From Nonomuraea basaltis (GTDB taxonomy: Bacteria; Actinomycetota; Actinomycetes; Streptosporangiales; Streptosporangiaceae): a stretch of DNA of 64,000 nt. Where the stretch lies: positions 1 to 64,000 of the forward strand of contig NZ_VCJS01000055.1 in NCBI RefSeq assembly GCF_005893125.1. The letters run 5' to 3'. Positions 17,174 to 27,754 of the stretch are shown one piece after another. The stretch's first letter is position 1. Every line of letters begins with the position of its first letter. Below the pieces are notes generated by a model. It was not told where the DNA came from, did no database searches, and worked only from the letters and a program-made list of their open reading frames with translations. Position numbers and translations under genes: made by a program.

Positions 17174-18898
17174 TCATCGCAAAGGCCGCCCCTCCCGGCC
17201 ACGTCCCTGATCGAGGTGCCGGTACGCGAGGTCGATGCGGGCCTTGTGGCGGGCGGCGCCCCGGGCGGGCAGGCTCCACTCCCCGTCCACCTCCACCAGC
17301 CGCACGCCCGGCGACTCCAGCCAGCGCAGGATGCACTCGGTCTCCTCGGCGCTGGCGGCGTGGACCGGGCCGGGACCCGGGATGACGGCCTCCGCCGCGG
17401 TCGTCAGGGAGGCGACGAAAGGGGTCGGGTGGGCGCCCTTCGGCATGACGCCGGCCGCGGCCAGCCTGCCGTAGCGGATGACGTGGATGTCCCAGCCGCC
17501 GCCGAACGCCGGGCTGGCGGCGACCAGCTGCGGGATGCGCGTGATGGCGCTCAGCCGCTGCATGCGGGCCGCCGCGCGGACGAACGCCGCCAGCCGGTCG
17601 CGGTCGATGGACGCCTCCTCGTAGCGCTGCTCCACCGACAGCCTCTCCATGCGGGCCGCCACGGCGGTGAAGACCGCCGTGGCGTCGAGGGTCATGGCGC
17701 GGCGGGCGCTCTCGACGTGGACGGCGTACTCCTCCAGGCTCTCCTTGCCCTCGCACGGCGCGCCGCAGCGGCCCATCTCGTGCAGCACGCAGGCCGCGCG
17801 CCGGGTGCGCAGGCTGATCGGCTGGGTGCACTGGCGCAGCGGGACCGCCTCGTGCAGGGCGATGCGGGCGTCGTCGGCCAGCCGGGCGCTGGTGAACGGG
17901 CCGAGATAGGTGGCCTCGTCGTCCTTCAGCTCGCGCACGATCGACAGGCGCGGGAAGGGCTCGGCGGTGAGCTTGAGCCAGAGGACCTTCTCCGGGAAGC
18001 GGGAGCGGCGGTTGTAGCGGGGCTTGGCGCCGCCGATCAGGCGCAGCTCCCTCACCTCGGCCTCCAGGCCGGTGGAGCAGACGATGTGGCGCACCCGCTC
18101 GGCGATGCCGATCATCTCGCGGATGCGCGGGCGGGTCTCGCTGGCGGTGAAGTAGGAGCGCACGCGGTTGCGCAGGTTGCCGCTCTTGCCGATGTAGAGC
18201 ACCTCGCCGCGCTCGTCCTCGAAGAGGTAGACGCCGGGCGCGTGGGGCACGGACTCGGCCAGGTGGCGCTTGCGCTGCTGCTCGGGCGTGGGCGCGCGGA
18301 CGAACGATTTGAGCTCCTCGAGCGTGTGCACCTGGAAGGAGCCGGCCCGCTCGATCAGCCCGTGCAGCACGGCCACGGTGGCCCTGGCGTCCTGCAGGGC
18401 CCGGTGGCACGGGTCGACGGGGCTGCGGAAGAACCTGGCCAGCGTGGCCAGCTTGGCGTTGGGCGTCTCGTCGCGGGTCAGCACACGGCGGGCCAGGTCG
18501 ACGGTGTCGACGACCGGGTTGGCCGGCGGGGGATAGCCCTGCGCGGCGCAGGCGGCCTTGATGAACCGGGTGTCGAAGCCGGCGTTGTGCGCCACCAGCG
18601 TGGCCCCGCGGATGAACTCCAGGAAGCTCGGCAGCACCGCCTCGATCCGCGGCGCGGCCACGACCATGGCGTCGGTGATCCCGGTCAGCACGGAGATGAA
18701 CGGCGGTATCGGCCCGCCAGGATCGACCAGCGTGGAGAACTCGCCCAGCACCTCGCCCGCCCGCACCTTGACCGCGCCGATCTCGGTGATGGCGTCCTCG
18801 GAAGGAGCGCCGCCGGTCGTCTCGAGGTCGAACACGACGAACGTGACGTCGCTCAGCGGGGTGCCGAGCTCGTCGAGAGTGCCTTGAACCGGATCCAC
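17174..18898 (-). CDS. DEDDh 3'-5' exonuclease / UvrC-like GIY-YIG fusion
   Basis: The 574-residue protein joins a DnaQ-like exonuclease (about 1-195) to a UvrC-like half (about 215-560). The exonuclease shows FDLETTGG (ExoI), HNAGFDTRF (ExoII) and HRALQDARAT (ExoIII with catalytic His), all DEDDh residues being present. The second part has the GIY-YIG nuclease hallmarks GVYLFEDERGEVLYIGKSGNLRNRVRSYF and a UvrC-like middle, but no C-terminal RNase H-type nuclease or helix-hairpin-helix. This matches the mycobacterial Rv2191 type. A role in DNA repair is inferred from the domains. GTG 18898 begins the protein; divergent from the kinase gene. Confidence 0.9.
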   Translation of the reverse strand: MDPVQGTLDELGTPLSDVTFVVFDLETTGGAPSEDAITEIGAVKVRAGEVLGEFSTLVDPGGPIPPFISVLTGITDAMVVAAPRIEAVLPSFLEFIRGATLVAHNAGFDTRFIKAACAAQGYPPPANPVVDTVDLARRVLTRDETPNAKLATLARFFRSPVDPCHRALQDARATVAVLHGLIERAGSFQVHTLEELKSFVRAPTPEQQRKRHLAESVPHAPGVYLFEDERGEVLYIGKSGNLRNRVRSYFTASETRPRIREMIGIAERVRHIVCSTGLEAEVRELRLIGGAKPRYNRRSRFPEKVLWLKLTAEPFPRLSIVRELKDDEATYLGPFTSARLADDARIALHEAVPLRQCTQPISLRTRRAACVLHEMGRCGAPCEGKESLEEYAVHVESARRAMTLDATAVFTAVAARMERLSVEQRYEEASIDRDRLAAFVRAAARMQRLSAITRIPQLVAASPAFGGGWDIHVIRYGRLAAAGVMPKGAHPTPFVASLTTAAEAVIPGPGPVHAASAEETECILRWLESPGVRLVEVDGEWSLPARGAARHKARIDLAYRHLDQGRGREGRPLR

Positions 18899-18973: not shown

Positions 18974-20482
18974 ATGTCCGCGGGAAGACTTGCCGGCCGC
19001 TACGCGCTGCTGCGCCCTCTGGGCGCGGGCGGCATGGGGAAAGTGTGGCTGGCCAGGGACGAGATGCTTGACCGCGAGGTCGCGGTCAAGGAGCTCACGC
19101 TGCCCGAAGGCATGGCGCCCAAGGATCGGGCGGACTCGGTGAAGAGGGCCGTGCGCGAGGCGCAGGCCACCGCGCGGCTGCGCCACCCGGGCATCGTGGC
19201 GCTGCACGACGTGGTCGTCGAGCACGAGCGGCCGTGGCTGGTCATGGAGCTGCTGCGGGGCCGCACCCTGGCCGAGACGGTACGCGAGTTCGGGCCCATG
19301 CCGCCCGCCCACGCCGCGCGGATCGGCGCGGACGTGCTGGACGCGCTGTCCGTCGCCCACGCGCAGGGGCTGCAGCACCGCGACGTCAAGCCGGCCAACG
19401 TGTTCCTGACCGACGGGGGCAGGGTGGTGCTCACCGACTTCGGCATCGCCAGGCAGGAGGGTCAGGCCGCGCTCACCGAGCAGGGGCTGATGATCGGCTC
19501 GCCCGGGTTCATCGCGCCCGAGCGGCTGGAGGGCGAGCCCGGCGGCCCGGCCAGCGACCTGTGGTCGCTCGGCGCCACGCTCTACGCCGCGGTGACGGGG
19601 GCCGCCGCCTACGAGGGCTCGGCGGCCCAGCGCGTACGCGCCACGCTGCTGACGCCCGTGCCCGTCGCGCCCGGGCCGCTCGGCCCGTTGATCGCCGCCA
19701 TGATGGCGCAGCACCCGGCCGGCCGTCCCGACCCGCGCGTGGTCGCGGACGCGCTCCGGCAGGTCGCCGGTGGAGCTCCGGCGCCGCGGCTGCCGGCCCC
19801 CCATGACGTGACCGCGCCCGGCAAGGTCAAGAAGCGCGGCCGGGCCGTGCTGTGGATCTCCGCCGCGACGGCGCTCGTGGTCGCGGCGGGCACGGCCGGC
19901 TTCTTCGTCCTGAAGAGCCTGGACGGCGGGGCGCCGGCGGCGTTCACCACGCCGATGGACGTGTGCACGCTGATCAGCCCGGAGGAGGCGGGCAGGCTGC
20001 TGCGCACCCAGAGCCCGCCCAAGGCGCGGCCCGGCTCCGACGAGGCAGGCCCCACGTGCGGCTGGCCGATCACCGGCACCGGCGTGAGTCTGCAGGTGCA
20101 GAAGGACTCCGACACGGTGGACCCGTGGTCGATGACCCCGGTCACGGCCCGCGCCCTCTTCCAGAACCAGAAGCGCTACTGGGTCAAGTTCCAAAACGAG
20201 GAACTCGACTGGACGCTTCCCGAGATCGGCGTGAAGGACACCAGGAAGGTCAAGCTCACCCCGGTGCGCCAGGTCGCCGGCCTCGGGGAGGAGGCGTTCG
20301 GCTTCGAGCTGACAGGCCCCACCGGCCGGGTCCACACCGCCTACGTCTTCTACCGGCTGGCCAATCTCGTGGTGAAGGTCGAATACTCCACCCTCGCCGA
20401 CCGCCCGACCGACGAGGACATCAAGCGGTCGGCGCTGAGCGCGGCGCAGACGAGCGAGCAGGCGTTGCGCAATGCCGGGTGA
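18974..20482 (+). CDS. Membrane Ser/Thr protein kinase with extracellular two-cysteine domain
   Basis: A 502-residue PknB-type kinase. Kinase domain about 10-265: glycine loop LGAGGMGKV (16-24), ATP Lys 39 (VAVKEL), catalytic HRDVKPANV (His 135), DFG in LTDFGIAR, and GSPGFIAPERLE. A membrane helix follows (about 293-312), then an extracellular domain that begins DVCTLISPEEAGRLL and has a second Cys in CGWPI. There are no PASTA repeats. The same extracellular pattern recurs in the next two genes. No clear ribosome site precedes ATG 18974, so a leaderless or weakly translated start is possible. It overlaps the next kinase gene by 11 bases. Confidence 0.93.
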   Translation: MSAGRLAGRYALLRPLGAGGMGKVWLARDEMLDREVAVKELTLPEGMAPKDRADSVKRAVREAQATARLRHPGIVALHDVVVEHERPWLVMELLRGRTLAETVREFGPMPPAHAARIGADVLDALSVAHAQGLQHRDVKPANVFLTDGGRVVLTDFGIARQEGQAALTEQGLMIGSPGFIAPERLEGEPGGPASDLWSLGATLYAAVTGAAAYEGSAAQRVRATLLTPVPVAPGPLGPLIAAMMAQHPAGRPDPRVVADALRQVAGGAPAPRLPAPHDVTAPGKVKKRGRAVLWISAATALVVAAGTAGFFVLKSLDGGAPAAFTTPMDVCTLISPEEAGRLLRTQSPPKARPGSDEAGPTCGWPITGTGVSLQVQKDSDTVDPWSMTPVTARALFQNQKRYWVKFQNEELDWTLPEIGVKDTRKVKLTPVRQVAGLGEEAFGFELTGPTGRVHTAYVFYRLANLVVKVEYSTLADRPTDEDIKRSALSAAQTSEQALRNAG

Positions 20483-21905
20483 CCTCTACCTGCTGGCAGG
20501 CCGTTACCGGCTCATCGAGCGCCTCGGGCAGGGCGGCGCGGGCACCGTGTGGCGCGCCATCGACGAGATTCTCGACCGGCAGGTCGCCGTCAAGCAGGTG
20601 CGCGTGCCGGAGGGGCTCGGCCCGTATGAGCGCGCGCGGTTCACCGACCACGCCATCCACGAGGCCAGGTCCGCCGGCCGGCTGCGCGACCCGGCCATCG
20701 TGCTGGTGCACGACGTGGTGCTCGAGGGCCACCAGCCGTGGATCATCATGGACCTGGTCACCGGCCGCTCGCTGGACAAGGTGATCAAGGAGCAGGGGCC
20801 GCTGCCGCCCGAGTTCGTGGCCCGGGTGGGGCTGCGGATGCTGTCGGCGCTGGAGGTCGCGCACGCGCACGGCATGCTGCACCAGGACGTCAAGCCGGCG
20901 AACATCCTGCTCGACGCCGACGGCTCGGCCATGCTCACCGACTTCGGCATCGCGGCCCAGATGGGCGGGCAGGGCGACAGGTTCGGCAGCGCCGGCTCGC
21001 CCGGCTACATGGCCCCCGAGCGGCTCAACGAGCAGCCCTCCGGCCCGGCGTCCGACCTGTGGTCGCTCGGCGCGAGCCTGTACACCGCGGTGGAGGGCCG
21101 GGCGCCGTTCGAGCGGGCGCTGCCCGCCGCGGTGGCGGCCGCGGTGCTGCTGCACGAGCCGCCGTTCCCGGCCAGGGCGGGCCGCCGCCTCGGCGGACTG
21201 CTGATGGCCATGCTCGCCAAGGACCCCGCCGCCCGGCCCACCGCGCCGCAGATCCGCCAGGCGCTGAGCGGCCTGCCCGCCGCCGTCCCCGCGACCAGGC
21301 GCCGCCGCCGGTGGCTGCTGCCCGCCGTGCTCGCCGCCGTCGTGGCGGTGGGCGCGGGCGGCTGGTACGCCGCCGGCGCCCTCGGCGGCGAGCCGGACCC
21401 CGGCAGGTTCGCCAAGACGCCGGACCCGTGCAAGCTGCTCAGTGACGCCCAGATCGTCGAGCTCATGAAGGGCACGCCGGAACGCATCCCGAGCAGGGCA
21501 GGCGAGTGCCAGTGGCTCATCCGCGAGGAGCCCGGCCGCCGCCTCACCGTGCGCACCTGGGCCGAGCGGCCCGACGGCGACCTCGGCGGCCCCCAGGTGG
21601 CGCAGCGGCGCTTCGCCAGCGAGAAGAGCACCCGGGCCGCCGGCCAGGGCGCGGTGCTGCGCGAGGCCAGCGGCCCGGTCGCCGACGTGGCGGGAGTCGG
21701 GGAGTCAGCGATCATCCAGAGCAAGTTCAAGCTCTACATCAATACCAACAAGAGCGGCCAATCCGACAGCATTGTCCTCTTCCGGACGAGTAACCTGCTC
21801 GGCGAGATCGTCTGGCATCGTGACGACATGCCGGCCTCCAAGCCGGCGGACAAGGAGACGGCCACCGCCGCGGCCCGCCTGGTCGCCGCGGCCCTGCAGA
21901 AATAG
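20472..21905 (+). CDS. Second membrane Ser/Thr protein kinase, HQD catalytic loop
   Basis: A 477-residue paralogue of the preceding kinase. Kinase domain about 8-265, with glycine loop LGQGGAGTV, ATP Lys in VAVKQV, and DFG in LTDFGIAAQ. The catalytic loop reads HQDVKPANI (137-145): the usual Arg of HRD is Gln, so it is a non-RD kinase and may be regulated differently. A membrane helix lies near 280-300 (LLPAVLAAVVAVGAGGW), and the extracellular part starts DPCKLLSDAQIVELM with a second Cys in GECQWLI, then VAGVGESAII and a C-terminal helix, as in the neighbours. ATG 20472 lies 11 bases inside the previous gene, indicating coupled expression. Confidence 0.92.
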   Translation: MPGDLYLLAGRYRLIERLGQGGAGTVWRAIDEILDRQVAVKQVRVPEGLGPYERARFTDHAIHEARSAGRLRDPAIVLVHDVVLEGHQPWIIMDLVTGRSLDKVIKEQGPLPPEFVARVGLRMLSALEVAHAHGMLHQDVKPANILLDADGSAMLTDFGIAAQMGGQGDRFGSAGSPGYMAPERLNEQPSGPASDLWSLGASLYTAVEGRAPFERALPAAVAAAVLLHEPPFPARAGRRLGGLLMAMLAKDPAARPTAPQIRQALSGLPAAVPATRRRRRWLLPAVLAAVVAVGAGGWYAAGALGGEPDPGRFAKTPDPCKLLSDAQIVELMKGTPERIPSRAGECQWLIREEPGRRLTVRTWAERPDGDLGGPQVAQRRFASEKSTRAAGQGAVLREASGPVADVAGVGESAIIQSKFKLYINTNKSGQSDSIVLFRTSNLLGEIVWHRDDMPASKPADKETATAAARLVAAALQK

Positions 21906-21918
21906 ACGCGTGGAAAGA

Positions 21919-21940
21919 GCTGCAAGCACCTTGCAAGTGG
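21919..21940. repeat. CTGCAAGCACCT/TTGCAAGTGG motif, copy 1
   Basis: CTGCAAGCACCT (21920-21931) abuts TTGCAAGTGG (21931-21940), forming the palindrome CTTGCAAG at the junction. It lies between the second kinase and the following gene. The same two words occur again at 23772-23810. It may be an operator or a small repeat. Confidence 0.45.
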
Positions 21941-21988
21941 TGTCATTACCATGTTTCACCGCAAGTCAGGGCGACCCCAGGAGTCCCA

Positions 21989-23551
21989 GTGAATCCCGGT
22001 AGCGAGTACGAGCCGCCGACCAACCCTTACCAGGTGCCCGGCAGGCAGTTCGAGCAACCGGCCATGCCACCGCGCATACCACCGGGCAGGCCACCGCAGA
22101 TGCCGACCATGCCGCAGATGCCGCCGCCTCCGCCGCCTAGACGGCCCACCTGGCTGCTGCCCACGCTCGCCGCCGCGCTCGTCGTGCTGGTCGCGGCCGG
22201 GGGCGTGGGCGCCTACCTGGTTTACGGCAAGGTCTCCGGCGGCTCCGCGCGGCCCCCGGCCCAGAGCGGCAAGCCGGCGTCCCAGCCCGCGGCCGCCGGC
22301 GCGAAGGGCCCCGACGTGTGCGCCATGCTCCCCAAGGAGGAGGCCGAGCGGCTCGTGCCCGGCGCGACCGTGTCCACGTCCTCCAAGGACAACGAATGGG
22401 CGGTCACCTTCGGCTGCAACTGGGTCAACCGCCGCATCTCGTACGGCGAGTTCTGGCGCAAGAGGGAGATCGACGTCAAGGTCGCGCAGCACAAGGGCGA
22501 GGGCGTCAAGACCGGCAGGTCGATGGCCCAGAACTCCTACGAGAGCGACCTGCGGAGCGGCAAGTACGGCGCCACCGCCACGCCCTCGCTGGACCCGGGC
22601 GAGAAGCTGTACACCTCCGCGGTCAAGGACGTCACTGGCGTGGGCGACGGCGCGTTCGCCCAATACACGTGGAGCCGCAGCAAGCTGTTGTGGTACTCCT
22701 ACGGCAAGGCGTTCGCCCGCGTCAACGACTTCACCATCGAGGTCAAGTTCCAGGCGGATCAGCAGCGCAAGGACGCGCAGATCCTGTCCAACGACACCGT
22801 GCAGTCGATCACCGAGGACAACGCGATCCGCGAGGTGAGCGGCCTGATCGCGCACTTCGCCAAGGGAGTGGCCGGCTGGCAGGCGAAGAACCCCAACGTG
22901 CTGGCCCAGGCCGAGGCGCCGAAGCCCACCTCCACGCCGAGCGCCGGCCCGACGCCCTCGCCCACCGCCCTGGCCGCGTTCCCGGCCGACTGCGAGGCCG
23001 TCGGCGAGGCCGCCACGCGGCTCGTGCCCGAGCCCACCACCCGCGCCCGCGGCCTGGAGCGGGGCGGCGACAGCCAGACCGAGTGCCGCTGGCTCAACCT
23101 CGACGTGCCCGGCAGCGGCGAGGGGACGAAGAAGATCCGCAGCGTGCTGATCACCGTGCACCGGTTCACCGACCGGGCGGGCGCGGTCCACGAGTCCGGG
23201 GCCAAGGCGTACTACGCGACCGAGCGCGGCGGAAACAAGGGCATGGCCGGGTCATCGATCGGCGGCATCACCTGGGGCAGGCTCACGGACGTCAAGGGGC
23301 TGGGCGATCAGGCGTACCAGCAGTTCCTGCAGACCAGGCGGGGTGAGGTGGCCGCGGCCAGCGGCTCGGTGCTGATGCGCAAGGGCGCGGTGGTCGTCCG
23401 GGTCGACTTCTCCGGCCACGAGCGGCCGGAGAACGTGCCGACCAACTCGCCCAAGGTCAAGCTCATGTCCGAGAAGGAAGCGATGGCCGGCGCGCTGACC
23501 ATGGCCAGGGCGTACATGGCGGAGCTGACCGATCAGCCGGTGGGCAACTGA
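21989..23551 (+). CDS. Membrane protein with two extracellular two-cysteine (DUF3558-like) domains
   Basis: A 520-residue protein: Pro/Met/Gln-rich cytoplasmic head (1-50), one membrane helix (about 52-76), then two copies of the domain found in the adjacent kinases. Copy 1 starts DVCAMLPKEEAERLV with its second Cys in FGCNWVN and VTGVGDGAFAQ later. Copy 2 starts ADCEAVGEAATRLV with the second Cys in TECRWLN and VKGLGDQAYQQ. A Thr/Pro linker joins them. The layout (Cys near a helix, Cys-x-Trp, a (A/V)xG(L/V)G(D/E)xA turn, final helix) resembles DUF3558-type extracytoplasmic domains. There is no kinase domain. GTG 21989 follows CCAGGAG. It may be a partner or substrate of the kinases. Confidence 0.85.
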   Translation: MNPGSEYEPPTNPYQVPGRQFEQPAMPPRIPPGRPPQMPTMPQMPPPPPPRRPTWLLPTLAAALVVLVAAGGVGAYLVYGKVSGGSARPPAQSGKPASQPAAAGAKGPDVCAMLPKEEAERLVPGATVSTSSKDNEWAVTFGCNWVNRRISYGEFWRKREIDVKVAQHKGEGVKTGRSMAQNSYESDLRSGKYGATATPSLDPGEKLYTSAVKDVTGVGDGAFAQYTWSRSKLLWYSYGKAFARVNDFTIEVKFQADQQRKDAQILSNDTVQSITEDNAIREVSGLIAHFAKGVAGWQAKNPNVLAQAEAPKPTSTPSAGPTPSPTALAAFPADCEAVGEAATRLVPEPTTRARGLERGGDSQTECRWLNLDVPGSGEGTKKIRSVLITVHRFTDRAGAVHESGAKAYYATERGGNKGMAGSSIGGITWGRLTDVKGLGDQAYQQFLQTRRGEVAAASGSVLMRKGAVVVRVDFSGHERPENVPTNSPKVKLMSEKEAMAGALTMARAYMAELTDQPVGN

Positions 23552-23872: not shown

Positions 23873-25702
23873 TCATTGCTTTTCCCGCGCCGGCCGGTCC
23901 AGGAACGGGTCGAGCAGGCCGGGCACCGCCCGCGCGGCGAGGTCCAGGCCGGTGCCGCGGCCCACGTCCACCACGTCGTAGTGCCCGCCGCCGGCGGCGG
24001 TGGTGGCCGAGACCGTCACCAGGCCGGAACGCCGCTGGAAGTACGACTCCGTGATCGTCCAGCCCGAGATGCCCGCGCGGTCGAGCGCGACCGTGTGGCG
24101 TACCGTGGCGCCGCTTCTCGTGATCAGATGTCGCCCGCCCAGCGCGTGCCCGAGGCTCCTGGCGCTCTTCCTGGCGAGCCACAGTCCCGACGGCAGCGCC
24201 ACGGCGGGCACCGCCCACACCCATGGGCCCAGCCACGGAACCAGCACGGACACCGGCCCCGCGACGGCCGCCAGCACGCCGACCGTCACCAGCGCCCGCA
24301 CAACCCGTCTCCGCCCGGCCGCCGCCGGATGCGCCACGAGAACCGGCGCACCCCTGCTCCCGCCCGGCTCGCCCGCGCTCGTGGCAGGCCCGCTCGGACC
24401 GCCCGCGCTCGCGTCAGGGCCGATCGTGCTGGTGCCGGGGTCGACCACCGCGTCCGTGCCAGGGCCGTCCGCCCAGGAAGCCACAGGGCCTGCGACAGGG
24501 CCCGAGGCCGTGGGCGTGTTCGCGGGTGCGGGGTGGCCGATGAGCGCTGGGGTGTTCGTGCCCGCGATCCGGGCGGCGAGGCGGCCGGCCACGGCGCGGG
24601 GGAGCGGTGGGGTGAGCGCGGCGACGTCTTCGGTCTCGTTCTCGGCCGCCTTGCCGAGCCCGGTGGCGATGGCCTTGACCCGCGCCCCGCCGCCCAGCCT
24701 GAGCAGCAGCGGCTCGCTGATCTCCACCCCGCGCAGCCGGCGCTCCTCCAGCGTCAGCGACCGGGTGGTCAGCAGGCCGCGGCGCAGCCTGAGCCGGCCC
24801 GGCTCGCGTTCCAGCCGGTAGCGCCCCCACGACTCGGCGAACAGCAGCACCGCCCCCAGCGCGCCCGCGGCGGCGTTCGCCACGAGCAGCAGCGGGACGG
24901 CCGGCAGCGGCCGCGTGGTCACCCAGTCCCACACGGCCTCGGCCGCCTCGGTCCTGAAGACCTTGACGCCGGCCCCGTCCAGCGCCTTGTACGCGACGCC
25001 CAGCACCACCGCCGCGCCCGTGAACGTCCACACCGACAGCGGCGCGTACTTGACCCACGACCACCTCAGCACGGCGAGGGGAGCGTCTCCCTCATGGGCC
25101 GGCTCGGCGGCGGCGTCGCCGAGCAGCAGCGTACGGCGCAGCGCCTCGGCGTCGTGCCTGGTCAGCGGATCCAGGGAGAGCTCGTCGCCGCCGGCCGAGT
25201 GCTCCCCCGTGCCCACCTTGACGACGGTCAGGCCGAACACCCGCAGAACCGGATCGGCCCGCAGGTCAACGCTGCGGACGCGGTCGCGCGGGATCGAGCG
25301 GCGCTGGCGTACGGCGATGCCCGAGCGCAGCTCCAGCCGGTCGGCGGTGAGGCGCCAGCGGGTGGCGCGGAGCCGGGCCACGTCGTACGCCACCACCCCC
25401 GCGACGATCAGCACCGCCGCCCCCGCGCACGCCGCCACGACACCGCTGACCGCCCAGTCCCGGCTCGTGAGGAACCGGACCAGCCCGATCACCGCAGGTG
25501 CCACCAGCGCCAGCGACTTGACCGCAGACGCCCACAGGCTGCGCCCGGACAGCCGCCGCCACCTCGCCTCCACGACGGGTGGCCGCCTGCCGGCATCCCC
25601 GGCACGGGAGGCCCGGCCCACGTCCTCGGCGCGGGTCCGCTGCGCGGAGTGCCGTCCCGCGTCGCGCCGGCCGCCGGCGTTCTGCGCCGGGAGCCCGCTC
25701 AC
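23873..25702 (-). CDS. Multi-domain bacterial PH (bPH2) membrane protein, YdbT-like
   Basis: A 609-residue membrane protein with three bPH2-like units separated by membrane helices. The units centre on RWRLTADRLELRSGIAV (about 135), YRLEREPGRLRLRRGLL (about 305), and HLITRSGATVRHTVAL with YFQRRSGLVTV (about 540). Helix pairs precede each unit. A Gly/Pro/Thr-rich low-complexity insert (about 395-460) sits before the last membrane pair and is probably a variable linker. Family members (YdbT type) are membrane-stress or envelope proteins with unproved activity. GTG 25702 overlaps the upstream gene stop (GTGA). Third gene of a three-gene operon. Confidence 0.86.
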   Translation of the reverse strand: MSGLPAQNAGGRRDAGRHSAQRTRAEDVGRASRAGDAGRRPPVVEARWRRLSGRSLWASAVKSLALVAPAVIGLVRFLTSRDWAVSGVVAACAGAAVLIVAGVVAYDVARLRATRWRLTADRLELRSGIAVRQRRSIPRDRVRSVDLRADPVLRVFGLTVVKVGTGEHSAGGDELSLDPLTRHDAEALRRTLLLGDAAAEPAHEGDAPLAVLRWSWVKYAPLSVWTFTGAAVVLGVAYKALDGAGVKVFRTEAAEAVWDWVTTRPLPAVPLLLVANAAAGALGAVLLFAESWGRYRLEREPGRLRLRRGLLTTRSLTLEERRLRGVEISEPLLLRLGGGARVKAIATGLGKAAENETEDVAALTPPLPRAVAGRLAARIAGTNTPALIGHPAPANTPTASGPVAGPVASWADGPGTDAVVDPGTSTIGPDASAGGPSGPATSAGEPGGSRGAPVLVAHPAAAGRRRVVRALVTVGVLAAVAGPVSVLVPWLGPWVWAVPAVALPSGLWLARKSARSLGHALGGRHLITRSGATVRHTVALDRAGISGWTITESYFQRRSGLVTVSATTAAGGGHYDVVDVGRGTGLDLAARAVPGLLDPFLDRPAREKQ

Positions 25703-26190
25703 GTCGCGTCCCCCGGCGTCGCCTGCGTGATGGCGGTCAGGCGTTCGGCCAGCTCGGCGGCCATCCCGTGGTCCAGCGCCTCGATCTTGACGGCCCCCGC
25801 GGACGAGGCCGTGGTGACCGTGATGTCGGCCAGCCCGAACAATCGCTGCACCGGCCCTCGCGCGGTGTCGATCCGCTGGATCCGTGACATGGGCGCCACC
25901 TTCCAGGTGTGCGTCAGCCACCCCTTGCGCGTGTAGACCGCGTCGTCGGTGATCTCCCACCGCTCCACCCGGTAGAAGGCGCGCGGCGCCACCACCGCGA
26001 TCACCAGGCATCCCACGGCGAACACCGCGACCGCCGCCCCCAGCCAGACCGGCCGATCGGTGAACACCCAGTACGACACCACCGCGACGGCGGCCACCGG
26101 CACCATCAGGATCAGCCACTGCACCGTCCACCAAGGGACCGCCCGCGGATCGGCCTGATTGCGCGGCGGCCGCAACGAGGTCGGGCTCAC
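25699..26190 (-). CDS. bPH2 domain membrane protein, YdbS-like
   Basis: A 163-residue protein with two N-terminal membrane helices (VQWLILMVPVAAVAVVSYW; LGAAVAVFAVGCLVIAVVA) and one bPH2 domain (ERWEITDDAVYTRKGWL, PMSRIQRIDTARGPVQRLFGLADI). It is the small partner usually encoded next to a YdbT-type protein. GTG 26190 overlaps the stop of the 76-residue gene upstream and its own stop overlaps the next start, so the three genes form a tightly coupled operon. Confidence 0.9.
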   Translation of the reverse strand: MSPTSLRPPRNQADPRAVPWWTVQWLILMVPVAAVAVVSYWVFTDRPVWLGAAVAVFAVGCLVIAVVAPRAFYRVERWEITDDAVYTRKGWLTHTWKVAPMSRIQRIDTARGPVQRLFGLADITVTTASSAGAVKIEALDHGMAAELAERLTAITQATPGDAT

Positions 26191-26527: not shown

Positions 26528-27754
26528 GTGACGGAAGTGCGGGGGGAGGACGGGCTCGTCCCCGAGTATCGGTGGGCGCTGCCGTCGGTGCTGCTCGGCG
26601 ACGGCCGCGAGGGCCGCCGGGTGCGGCGCTCGACGCGCGACTGGATCGTCGACATCACCGTCTTCCTGCTCGCCTGCGGCATCACGCTCCTGACGCTGCC
26701 GGAGCTCCAGGACGAGCCCAACCTGCTCCTGGCGATCGAGCAGGTCGTGGGCGCCCTGTCGTGCGCGGCGGTCTGGCTGCGGCGCAGGTGGCCGGTCGGG
26801 CTCGCGCTGGTGACGATCGTGCTGTCGTCGTACCTGGAGCTCGCCGGCGGGGCCTCGGTCGTGGCGATGTTCACTGTGGCGGTGCACCGGCCGTTCAAGA
26901 TCTCCGGGCCGATCACGCTGCTGGCCATCTTCACCTTGGGCCCGTACGTCGTCCTGCGGCCGCAGGAGGAGCTGTCGCCGCTGGCGACGGGCATCGTCGG
27001 GACGGCCATCGTGCTGACCGTGTTCGCGTGGGGCATCGTGATCAGGGCCAGGCGGCAGCTCATCTGGTCGCTCAGGCAGCGCGCCGACATCGCCGCCGAG
27101 GAGGCCAAGCGGCTCGAACGCGAGCGGATCGCCAGGGAGATGCACGACGTGCTCGCGCACCGCATCTCCATGCTCAGCCTGCACGCCGGCGCGCTGGAGT
27201 TCCGCCCGGACGCGCCCGCCGACGAGATCTCCAGGGCGGCGGGGGCCATCAGGAGCAACGCCCACCTGGCCTTACAGGACCTGCGCGAGGTGATCGGCGT
27301 GCTGCGGCACGCGGCGCCGGGCGAGGACGACACCGTGCCCGACCGGCCGCAGCCCACCCTCGCCGACCTGCCCACGCTGGTCGAGGAGTGCCGGCAGGCG
27401 GGCATGGACATACGGCTCGACCTGCGGGCCGGCGGCGCGCCCGAAGGGCTGGGCCGCAACCTCTACCGCATCGTGCAGGAGGCGCTCACCAACGCCCGCA
27501 AGCACGCGGGCGGGGCGCCGGTGACCGTAACCGTGACCGGAAAGCGCGGCAAGGGGCTGTCGGCGGAGGTACGCAACCCGCTCTGGTCCCGCCACCCCCT
27601 GCGCATCCCGGGGGCGAAGGCGGGGCTCATCGGGCTGACGGAGCGGGCGGAGCTGGCCGGGGGCAGGCTGGAGCACGGCCCGACGCCGGAGGGGGAGTTC
27701 GTGGTACGCGCCTGGCTGCCGTGGCCGGTGGAGACGACTCTGGAGGACGCATGA
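26528..27754 (+). CDS. NarL-type sensor histidine kinase
   Basis: A 408-residue membrane kinase: cytoplasmic N-terminus, four to five membrane helices (about 40-170), a short coiled segment, a HisKA_3 dimerisation domain with phospho-His in REMHDVLAHRISML (about 205), and a HATPase_c domain with N box VQEALTNARKHAG and a glycine box near GLIGLTERAELAGG. No extracellular sensor domain is seen, so it may sense within the membrane. GTG 26528 starts the gene. Its stop overlaps the response regulator ATG by 4 bases, a classic two-component pair. Confidence 0.94.
   Translation: MTEVRGEDGLVPEYRWALPSVLLGDGREGRRVRRSTRDWIVDITVFLLACGITLLTLPELQDEPNLLLAIEQVVGALSCAAVWLRRRWPVGLALVTIVLSSYLELAGGASVVAMFTVAVHRPFKISGPITLLAIFTLGPYVVLRPQEELSPLATGIVGTAIVLTVFAWGIVIRARRQLIWSLRQRADIAAEEAKRLERERIAREMHDVLAHRISMLSLHAGALEFRPDAPADEISRAAGAIRSNAHLALQDLREVIGVLRHAAPGEDDTVPDRPQPTLADLPTLVEECRQAGMDIRLDLRAGGAPEGLGRNLYRIVQEALTNARKHAGGAPVTVTVTGKRGKGLSAEVRNPLWSRHPLRIPGAKAGLIGLTERAELAGGRLEHGPTPEGEFVVRAWLPWPVETTLEDA

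Follow-up and report, generated by a model that had tools for sequence, protein, structure and literature searches.

Three adjacent genes in a stretch of 64,000 nucleotides of Nonomuraea basaltis DNA (contig NZ_VCJS01000055.1, positions 1 to 64,000; hereafter the window) encode membrane proteins that carry four homologous extracellular domains, one in each of two receptor serine/threonine kinases, K1 and K2, and two in a kinase-free third protein, T, whose first and second extracellular domains are referred to as Ta and Tb. The shared domain, together with the joint inheritance of the three genes (the trio) in relatives, suggests a receptor made of several parts, of which some carry out the signalling while the rest serve only in sensing.

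An initial annotation of these genes had described a (D/A)xC element, a CxW or CGW and an (A/V)xG(L/V)G(D/E)xA element in the C-termini of the two kinases and in both halves of the third protein, and had taken the four regions to be one type of domain; both the description and its interpretation were borne out. The motif triplets are DVC/CGW/VAGLGEEA in K1, DPC/CQW/VAGVGESA in K2, DVC/CNW/VTGVGDGA in Ta and ADC/CRW/VKGLGDQA in Tb. When a regular expression for the (D/A)xC, CxW, GxG(D/E)xA arrangement was run over the 82,854 six-frame residues of the window lying in open stretches of at least 100 amino acids (aa), it matched in exactly these four places and nowhere else, and in none of 6000 shuffled sequences. 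Each of the four domains has two cysteines and no more. When the four types were aligned with sequences taken from six genomes, none of the 24 rows departed from the two cysteines, from the Trp of CxW or from one Ala. Comparison of domain profiles of 34 to 39 rows each gave significant E-values for all six pairs (K1-K2 1.1e-21, Ta-Tb 4.6e-16, K2-Ta 7.3e-16, K2-Tb 1.6e-12, K1-Ta 6.5e-11 and K1-Tb 3.4e-7), the controls, which were reversed profiles and kinase domains, lying between 0.009 and 0.99. Smith-Waterman alignment of the single sequences against 500 shuffles yielded z-scores of 9.2 for K2-Ta, 7.7 for Ta-Tb and 6.4 for K1-K2, values that no shuffle reached, and lower ones for K2-Tb (3.7; 1/500), K1-Tb (3.6; 2/500) and K1-Ta (2.3; 18/500), the last of which is weak. 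The models of K2 and of both halves of T run through their helices and strands in a similar order and include a helix at the C-terminus, Ta following the other copies, so that the four regions neither lack mutual profile similarity nor, where modelled, have unrelated folds.

The co-occurrence of the three genes across genomes, which the initial annotation had put forward as a check, supports a conserved unit of three genes. Relatives of T found by name numbered five, in four Nonomuraea species and Thermoactinospora rubra. Among 41 near relatives T was present in 23 genomes, all of one genus and amounting to 23 of the 25 members of that genus, and a draw of 61 genomes of the family, nearly all one per genus, contained 13 with a full T at E <1e-70, two of them shared with the near-relative draw; 19 of the 61 had some match to T, and six were left out, their best matches (1.6e-7 to 9.4e-4) covering part of T only. 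The total is 37 T loci in 12 genera, including the window and three more named Nonomuraea loci that were taken as distinct. K1, K2 and T stand intact in the same order on the same strand at 34 of these 37 loci, in 10 genera, a figure made up of the window, 32 of the 36 fetched loci by exact pattern, and L091. In L091 the K2 gene is split over two frames (L091:9625-11126), either by a real mutation or by an assembly error. The remaining three loci are all cut by contig ends: L062 starts inside the K2 ectodomain, and L193, from the same genome, stops inside K2; L065 starts inside the T tail, and L192, also from the same genome, stops just after K2, L192 and L193 thus being halves of trios; L088 starts near the start of T, and one further domain copy was found in that genome, at the end of another contig. 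In nine genera beyond the window's own the trio is intact and the fetched stretches contain no convincing match to the genes that flank it in the window. Two members of the genus are without T, one of which (G019) is 63% complete and has no domain copy at 1e-5, the other being G002, to which we return. Two further genomes of the family, G103 and G172, have four domain matches with trio-like spacing. In a draw from the class outside the family 3 of 92 genomes matched at 1e-5 (best 1.1e-14 to 5.7e-7), all of them from one other family. Adjoining domain copies in two separate frames were seen at three loci of another family of the class (L103, L107, L116), with no kinase match in these short stretches.

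Fold and family of the extracellular domain

The K2 ectodomain was modelled from the 24-row alignment with a predicted local distance difference test score (pLDDT) of 94.5 and a predicted template modelling score (pTM) of 0.89, and T from 15 rows with values of 81 and 0.53. The best VIA-align match of the K2 model was the extracellular domain of PknH, 4ESQ (Z 15.7, 143 of 165 residues, 2.3 A); next came the TiME proteins 7CU8 (Z 14.0) and 7CU9 (Z 13.6), and the rest scored 11.1 or less. Foldseek gave no match to the K2 model at E <=0.001; 4ESQ ranked 48 by E-value, yet it had the highest query-normalised template modelling score (TM-score, 0.59) among the 50 matches listed. With the T model 4ESQ was again the top VIA-align match, through Tb (Z 14.5, 147 residues, 3.0 A), and it ranked third in Foldseek (E 6.1e-4) after two matches of low TM-score. 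On these models of K2 and Tb the predicted fold of the domain is that of the PknH sensor, which K1 and Ta would share by homology.

The affiliation of the domain by sequence is a separate matter. Membership of PknH_C (PF14032) finds no support in the sequence: profile comparison gave E-values from 0.25 to 6e-4 (the best for K1), none of them significant, the PF14032 model had 0 matches in this genome at E 1e-3, and each domain has only two cysteines. The initial annotation had seen in the domain the look of DUF3558-type lipoproteins, which the sequence bears out no more than weakly. The DxC..CxW cysteine pair of DUF3558 (PF12079) is present in the window domains in the correct register, and a profile of the wide set matches DUF3558 over 51 columns around that pair at E 1.6e-5, which makes the domain closer by sequence to DUF3558 than to PknH_C (0.029 for the same set). 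Taken singly, the K2 and K1 profiles match at 1.4e-5 and 8e-4, but those of Ta and Tb do not (0.017 and 0.09), nor do the halves of T alone match any Pfam family at E 1; matches at E <=0.1 occur in 9 of the 24 domain rows, the best at 1.1e-5. Bit scores fall below the gathering cut-off of 34.1 throughout (K1 24.8, or 26.8 in the genome search; T 18.7; K2 17.5). When 12 true DUF3558 members were aligned, C123 was invariant and C149 nearly so, and this second cysteine pair is absent from the window domains, as is the N-terminal cysteine that the 12 members conserve. DUF3558 is therefore a remote relative at most, the match being local and below the Pfam cut-off and the second pair missing, and we call the domain an unnamed family whose predicted fold is that of the PknH sensor and which is distantly linked to DUF3558. 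No solved structure was found by sequence with the four-domain profile, its sole match being a xylanase at E 0.3, and none with the DUF3558 profile up to E 10. Viral structures gave no match with E up to 0.001.

Quartets and the descent of domains and kinases

A domain-profile search of the family draw, in which at most 53 candidates were scored per genome, gave matches at 1e-5 in 36 of the 61 genomes. Twenty loci were inspected, L067 and 19 regions chosen from this search with clusters first, and nine of them contain four successive genes that each end in a copy of the domain; these are referred to as quartets. In eight of the nine, the Lys, the HRD Asp and the DFG Asp are all intact in exactly two receptors and not in the other two, the alignment of the most degenerate quartet kinases being rough. 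The order is active, pseudokinase, active, pseudokinase in six quartets (L182, L183, L185, L187, L188, L189) and likewise in L184, except that Arg replaces the catalytic Lys in the first kinase and that no kinase part is recognisable in the second gene; it is active-pseudo-pseudo-active in L067 and active-active-pseudo-pseudo in L186, where the last gene has the Lys and DFG but HGN for HRD. Three genomes (G048, G083, G097) possess both a trio and a quartet. Four of the other loci inspected (L195, L196, L199, L200) hold stand-alone copies with no kinase of the same kind in the stretch. In several quartets the first pseudokinase has no recognisable N-lobe and a long proline-rich linker. A further arrangement, two domain copies followed by a kinase match, was seen in another genome of the family (L198:4094-6084).

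A tree of 110 domains, drawn from 14 of the 36 fetched T loci together with L065, L192, the arrays and the stand-alone copies, resolves K1 with the first quartet receptor (support 100/99), K2 (97/93), Ta (100/99) and Tb (99/99; 17 rows each for Ta and Tb), and joins Ta to Tb only at 88/51. Ta and Tb each forming one clade, the two-domain form must be old. A kinase tree of 50 rows, with support from the Shimodaira-Hasegawa-like approximate likelihood ratio test (SH-aLRT) only, agrees for K1, which groups with active quartet kinases (96), and joins the third quartet gene weakly to K2 (68); a single ectodomain clade of K2 and the third quartet gene is not in the best tree but is not rejected (p 0.24). 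From this pattern of clades the trio and the quartet appear to have a catalytic pair in common, more surely for K1 than for K2, and the non-catalytic places to have been filled from different sources. The T copies group with stand-alone, membrane-anchored copies (99/93), and a single group of T and the pseudokinase ectodomains is rejected by the approximately unbiased (AU) test (p 0.0045); the exact rows for that test were named after the tree had been obtained, the fusion idea itself having been recorded before it. An origin of T as a fusion of two pseudokinase receptors that had lost their kinase parts was rejected on these two results.

As judged from their motifs, K1 and K2 are kinases with complete catalytic motifs: Pkinase (PF00069) scores are 143.4 and 160.1 bits against a cut-off of 31.7, and the catalytic Lys, the HRD/HQD Asp and the DFG Asp are present in K1 (K39/D137/D155) and, at the equivalent positions, in K2. 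The two are not alike in other respects. K1 has HRD and the activation-loop Thr168 in 34 of 34 rows as printed, and by analogy with kinases in general Thr168 would be the activating site; K2 of the window has HQD for HRD and a Gly at the column of Thr168, and HQD or HHD occurs in 25 of the 33 K2 rows that could be read (two of 35 being unreadable).

A candidate multi-subunit receptor and its rivals

We put at about even the chance that K1, K2 and T together make up a single membrane receptor, with T as a dedicated co-receptor of the K1/K2 pair, the evidence being genomic and, through predicted models, structural. In such a receptor the four related domains would pack together on the outer side of the membrane, and a ligand lying in a cleft, of which PknH has a large and conserved example, would alter the packing and so bring the two kinase domains together. 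K2 would be the activator, because in the window it has no Thr at the loop position that K1 conserves and because it is mostly non-RD, and K1 the partner that is switched on by phosphorylation, because it keeps its loop Thr in all 34 rows. T would act as the dedicated co-receptor that adds two sensor domains, and its proline-rich tail may dock with the kinases or be phosphorylated by them. A broader proposition is more doubtful, and is put forward tentatively: that this actinomycete family has hetero-oligomeric Ser/Thr kinase receptors built on four PknH-fold domains, two on catalytic and two on non-catalytic subunits, in which the non-catalytic half was acquired twice independently, as two pseudokinases or as T, and in which the catalytic pair is often unequal in the loop Thr.

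A number of observations weigh against the receptor model. Conserved gene order is also compatible with proteins of one pathway that make no contact. In genome G002 a contig starts with two kinase-type copies spaced like K1 and K2, and T was not found. Two loci (L061, L063) carry a second T directly after the first, giving six domain copies in one locus, so that two plus two is not a strict rule. Nor do all arrays conform to it: L190 has three intact kinases in a row, with a stand-alone copy on the opposite strand and the contig ending soon after, L191 has two genes of which neither has the full motifs, L194 pairs a stand-alone copy with one intact kinase, and L197 is a single kinase. Since T does not group with the pseudokinase ectodomains, the parallel between trio and quartet must be convergent or coincidental for the non-catalytic half. 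With regard to the kinases, the non-RD motif of K2 is not universal (HRD in 8 of the 33 readable rows), Ser occurs elsewhere in the K2 loops, as does Thr in certain rows, and L067 has a loop Thr on both active kinases; in the standard quartets the loop Thr belongs to the third, K2-like gene in 6 of 7 and to the first, K1-like gene in 0 of 7. A kinase with a loop Thr beside one without it does therefore recur, but on the other member.

The initial annotation had named co-receptor, decoy and substrate as possible roles of T, and by analogy a co-receptor is in our judgement the most likely of the three. That T is chiefly a substrate or output adaptor, its proline-rich tail being phosphorylated by kinases to which the ectodomains merely bring it, seems unlikely. 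It is true that kinase-substrate pairs are common in one operon and that the tail, which the predicted topology places in the cytoplasm, is rich in proline in most of the relatives printed and varies greatly in length, reaching more than 900 Pro/Gly/Ser-rich residues and running off the contig start in L065 (L065:1-4056). However, the tail is not proline-rich in L057, the second T of L063 and L064 (8, 11 and 13% Pro, with start codons uncertain), an N-terminal EPPT-like stretch that recurs in many loci of the genus is without its Thr in L087, L089 and L092, and it is the ectodomains that are the part of T conserved across genera. An inhibitor or decoy whose two ectodomains bind the ligand or the kinase ectodomains, keeping K1 and K2 apart, is somewhat less likely again. 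T has the expected build, with two copies of the same domain, no kinase and an adjoining gene, and its nearest relatives in the tree are the stand-alone membrane-anchored copies, but its strict pairing with both kinases in one order across genera suits a co-receptor equally and no sequence feature was seen that favours inhibition.

The remaining alternative is that K1, K2 and T each serve as a receptor in their own right, for ligands that are related, having been produced by duplication and kept together only through shared regulation, and we hold this to be improbable to much the same degree as a decoy. Paralogous receptor arrays do recur in these genomes, L190 being an example, but K1, K2, Ta and Tb are each an old clade and their order is constant in 10 genera despite differing neighbours, which is not expected of loose duplicates. 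A co-receptor arrangement has parallels in plants and animals, where CLV2/CRN, HER3 and the type I/II BMP receptors follow the same logic of catalytic with non-catalytic, or of unequal, subunits; the likeness is one of analogy only.

Ligand sensing by bacterial receptor Ser/Thr kinases is a largely open question, and such kinases are often pictured as homodimers. If the proposal is correct, bacteria would have, in an unequal kinase pair with a kinase-free partner and in the pseudokinase quartets, a counterpart of the co-receptors and pseudokinases known from plants and animals, and the trio would allow the role of a PknH-type sensor domain to be tested outside the pathogens. The kinase domains of K1 and K2 are of the kind found in PASTA-type receptor kinases (PknB/Stk1, NF033483), with partial matches of 221 and 199 bits; these are under half of the NF033483 cut-off of 450, and there is no PASTA repeat among the Pfam matches. 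PknH resembles K1 and K2 in its layout of kinase, transmembrane helix and extracellular domain, and it is the protein that the models of K2 and T match best in structure. Its sensor domain is common to LppH, LprH, LpqA, LpqQ and Rv3705c in mycobacteria (PMC4118811), so that the sharing of a receptor-kinase ectodomain with non-kinase envelope proteins, in which PknH again resembles the trio, is already known. PknH has been proposed to bind a small molecule in the cleft and to signal via localisation or oligomerisation (PMC4118811, PMC3601408, PMC4601284), its domain is described with two intramolecular disulfides (PMC4118811, PMC3601408), and pknH1 and pknH2 lie near each other in some strains, flanking a putative transporter gene (PMC7785237). 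The trio differs in having as partner a fixed neighbour that carries the domain twice, and its domains have two cysteines each, whereas by our own count 12 of the 14 PknH_C members printed have four. The initial annotation knew of no description of such a trio, and in the open-access literature, which misses most subscription papers, we likewise found none of a fixed trio with a two-domain kinase-free partner and none of kinase/pseudokinase quartets.

Gene layout and neighbouring genes

All three genes were confirmed at the positions given in the table, on the same strand of a host genome of 14.3 Mb. K1 and K2 share 11 bp where the one ends and the other starts, and a gap of 83 bp separates K2 from T. 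No terminator-like or sigma-70-like sites were found in the K1-K2-T stretch, a result of little weight, such scans saying little in a GC-rich actinomycete. Pfam and NCBIfam matches of T include no kinase family, and T had no match in phage records. One NCBIfam match of T, to CU044_5270 (E 0.0013), was set aside, as it covers only aa 40-102, in the tail and transmembrane helix, and scores 18.7 against a cut-off of 100.

Table. Positions of K1, K2, T and their parts in the window (TM, transmembrane; AF2, AlphaFold2)
Feature	Position	Strand	Evidence or remark
K1, receptor Ser/Thr kinase, 502 aa	18974..20482	+	Pkinase PF00069 E 1.1e-41; kinase, one predicted TM helix (aa 295-313, hydropathy), one extracellular domain
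K1 protein kinase domain	19001..19630	+	Pfam match aa 10-219; Lys39, Asp137, Asp155 present
K1 extracellular domain, Cys331 and Cys362	19943..20479	+	hhalign against other three copies E 1.1e-21 to 3.4e-7
K2, receptor Ser/Thr kinase, 477 aa	20472..21905	+	Pkinase E 9e-47; one predicted TM helix
K2 protein kinase domain	20505..21260	+	Pfam match aa 12-263
K2 extracellular domain, Cys320 and Cys346	21408..21902	+	AF2 pLDDT 94.5; 4ESQ Z 15.7
T, kinase-free membrane protein, 520 aa, two domain copies	21989..23551	+	
T N-terminal tail, proline-rich, basic residues just before TM helix	21989..22165	+	sequence; cytoplasmic by inferred topology
T TM helix, aa 60-78	22166..22222	+	hydropathy
Ta, Cys111 and Cys143	22301..22921	+	profile-profile comparison and T model
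Tb, Cys335 and Cys366	22976..23548	+	profile-profile comparison and T model; 4ESQ Z 14.5 over 147 residues

The divergent neighbour 75 bp upstream of K1 (17174-18898, - strand), which from our own reading we take to be an exonuclease/GIY-YIG (UvrC- or Cho-like) protein, adjoins the trio at all but one (L088) of the 25 loci fetched from the genus, thus at 24, and in 0 of 11 loci outside it. The downstream neighbours at 23873-26134 (-) and 26528-27754 (+), presumably a PH-like membrane protein and a histidine kinase as we read them, were matched in many, not all, of the genus loci, within the reach of the stretches, and had no convincing match outside the genus. Elsewhere in the window's genome, contig C35 has a gene for another, distant protein with two copies of the domain and no kinase part (L003 / L073:4461-6059), the surrounding 12 kb containing no kinase that resembles K1 or K2, and the short contig C431 (L002) holds several weak domain copies in different frames.

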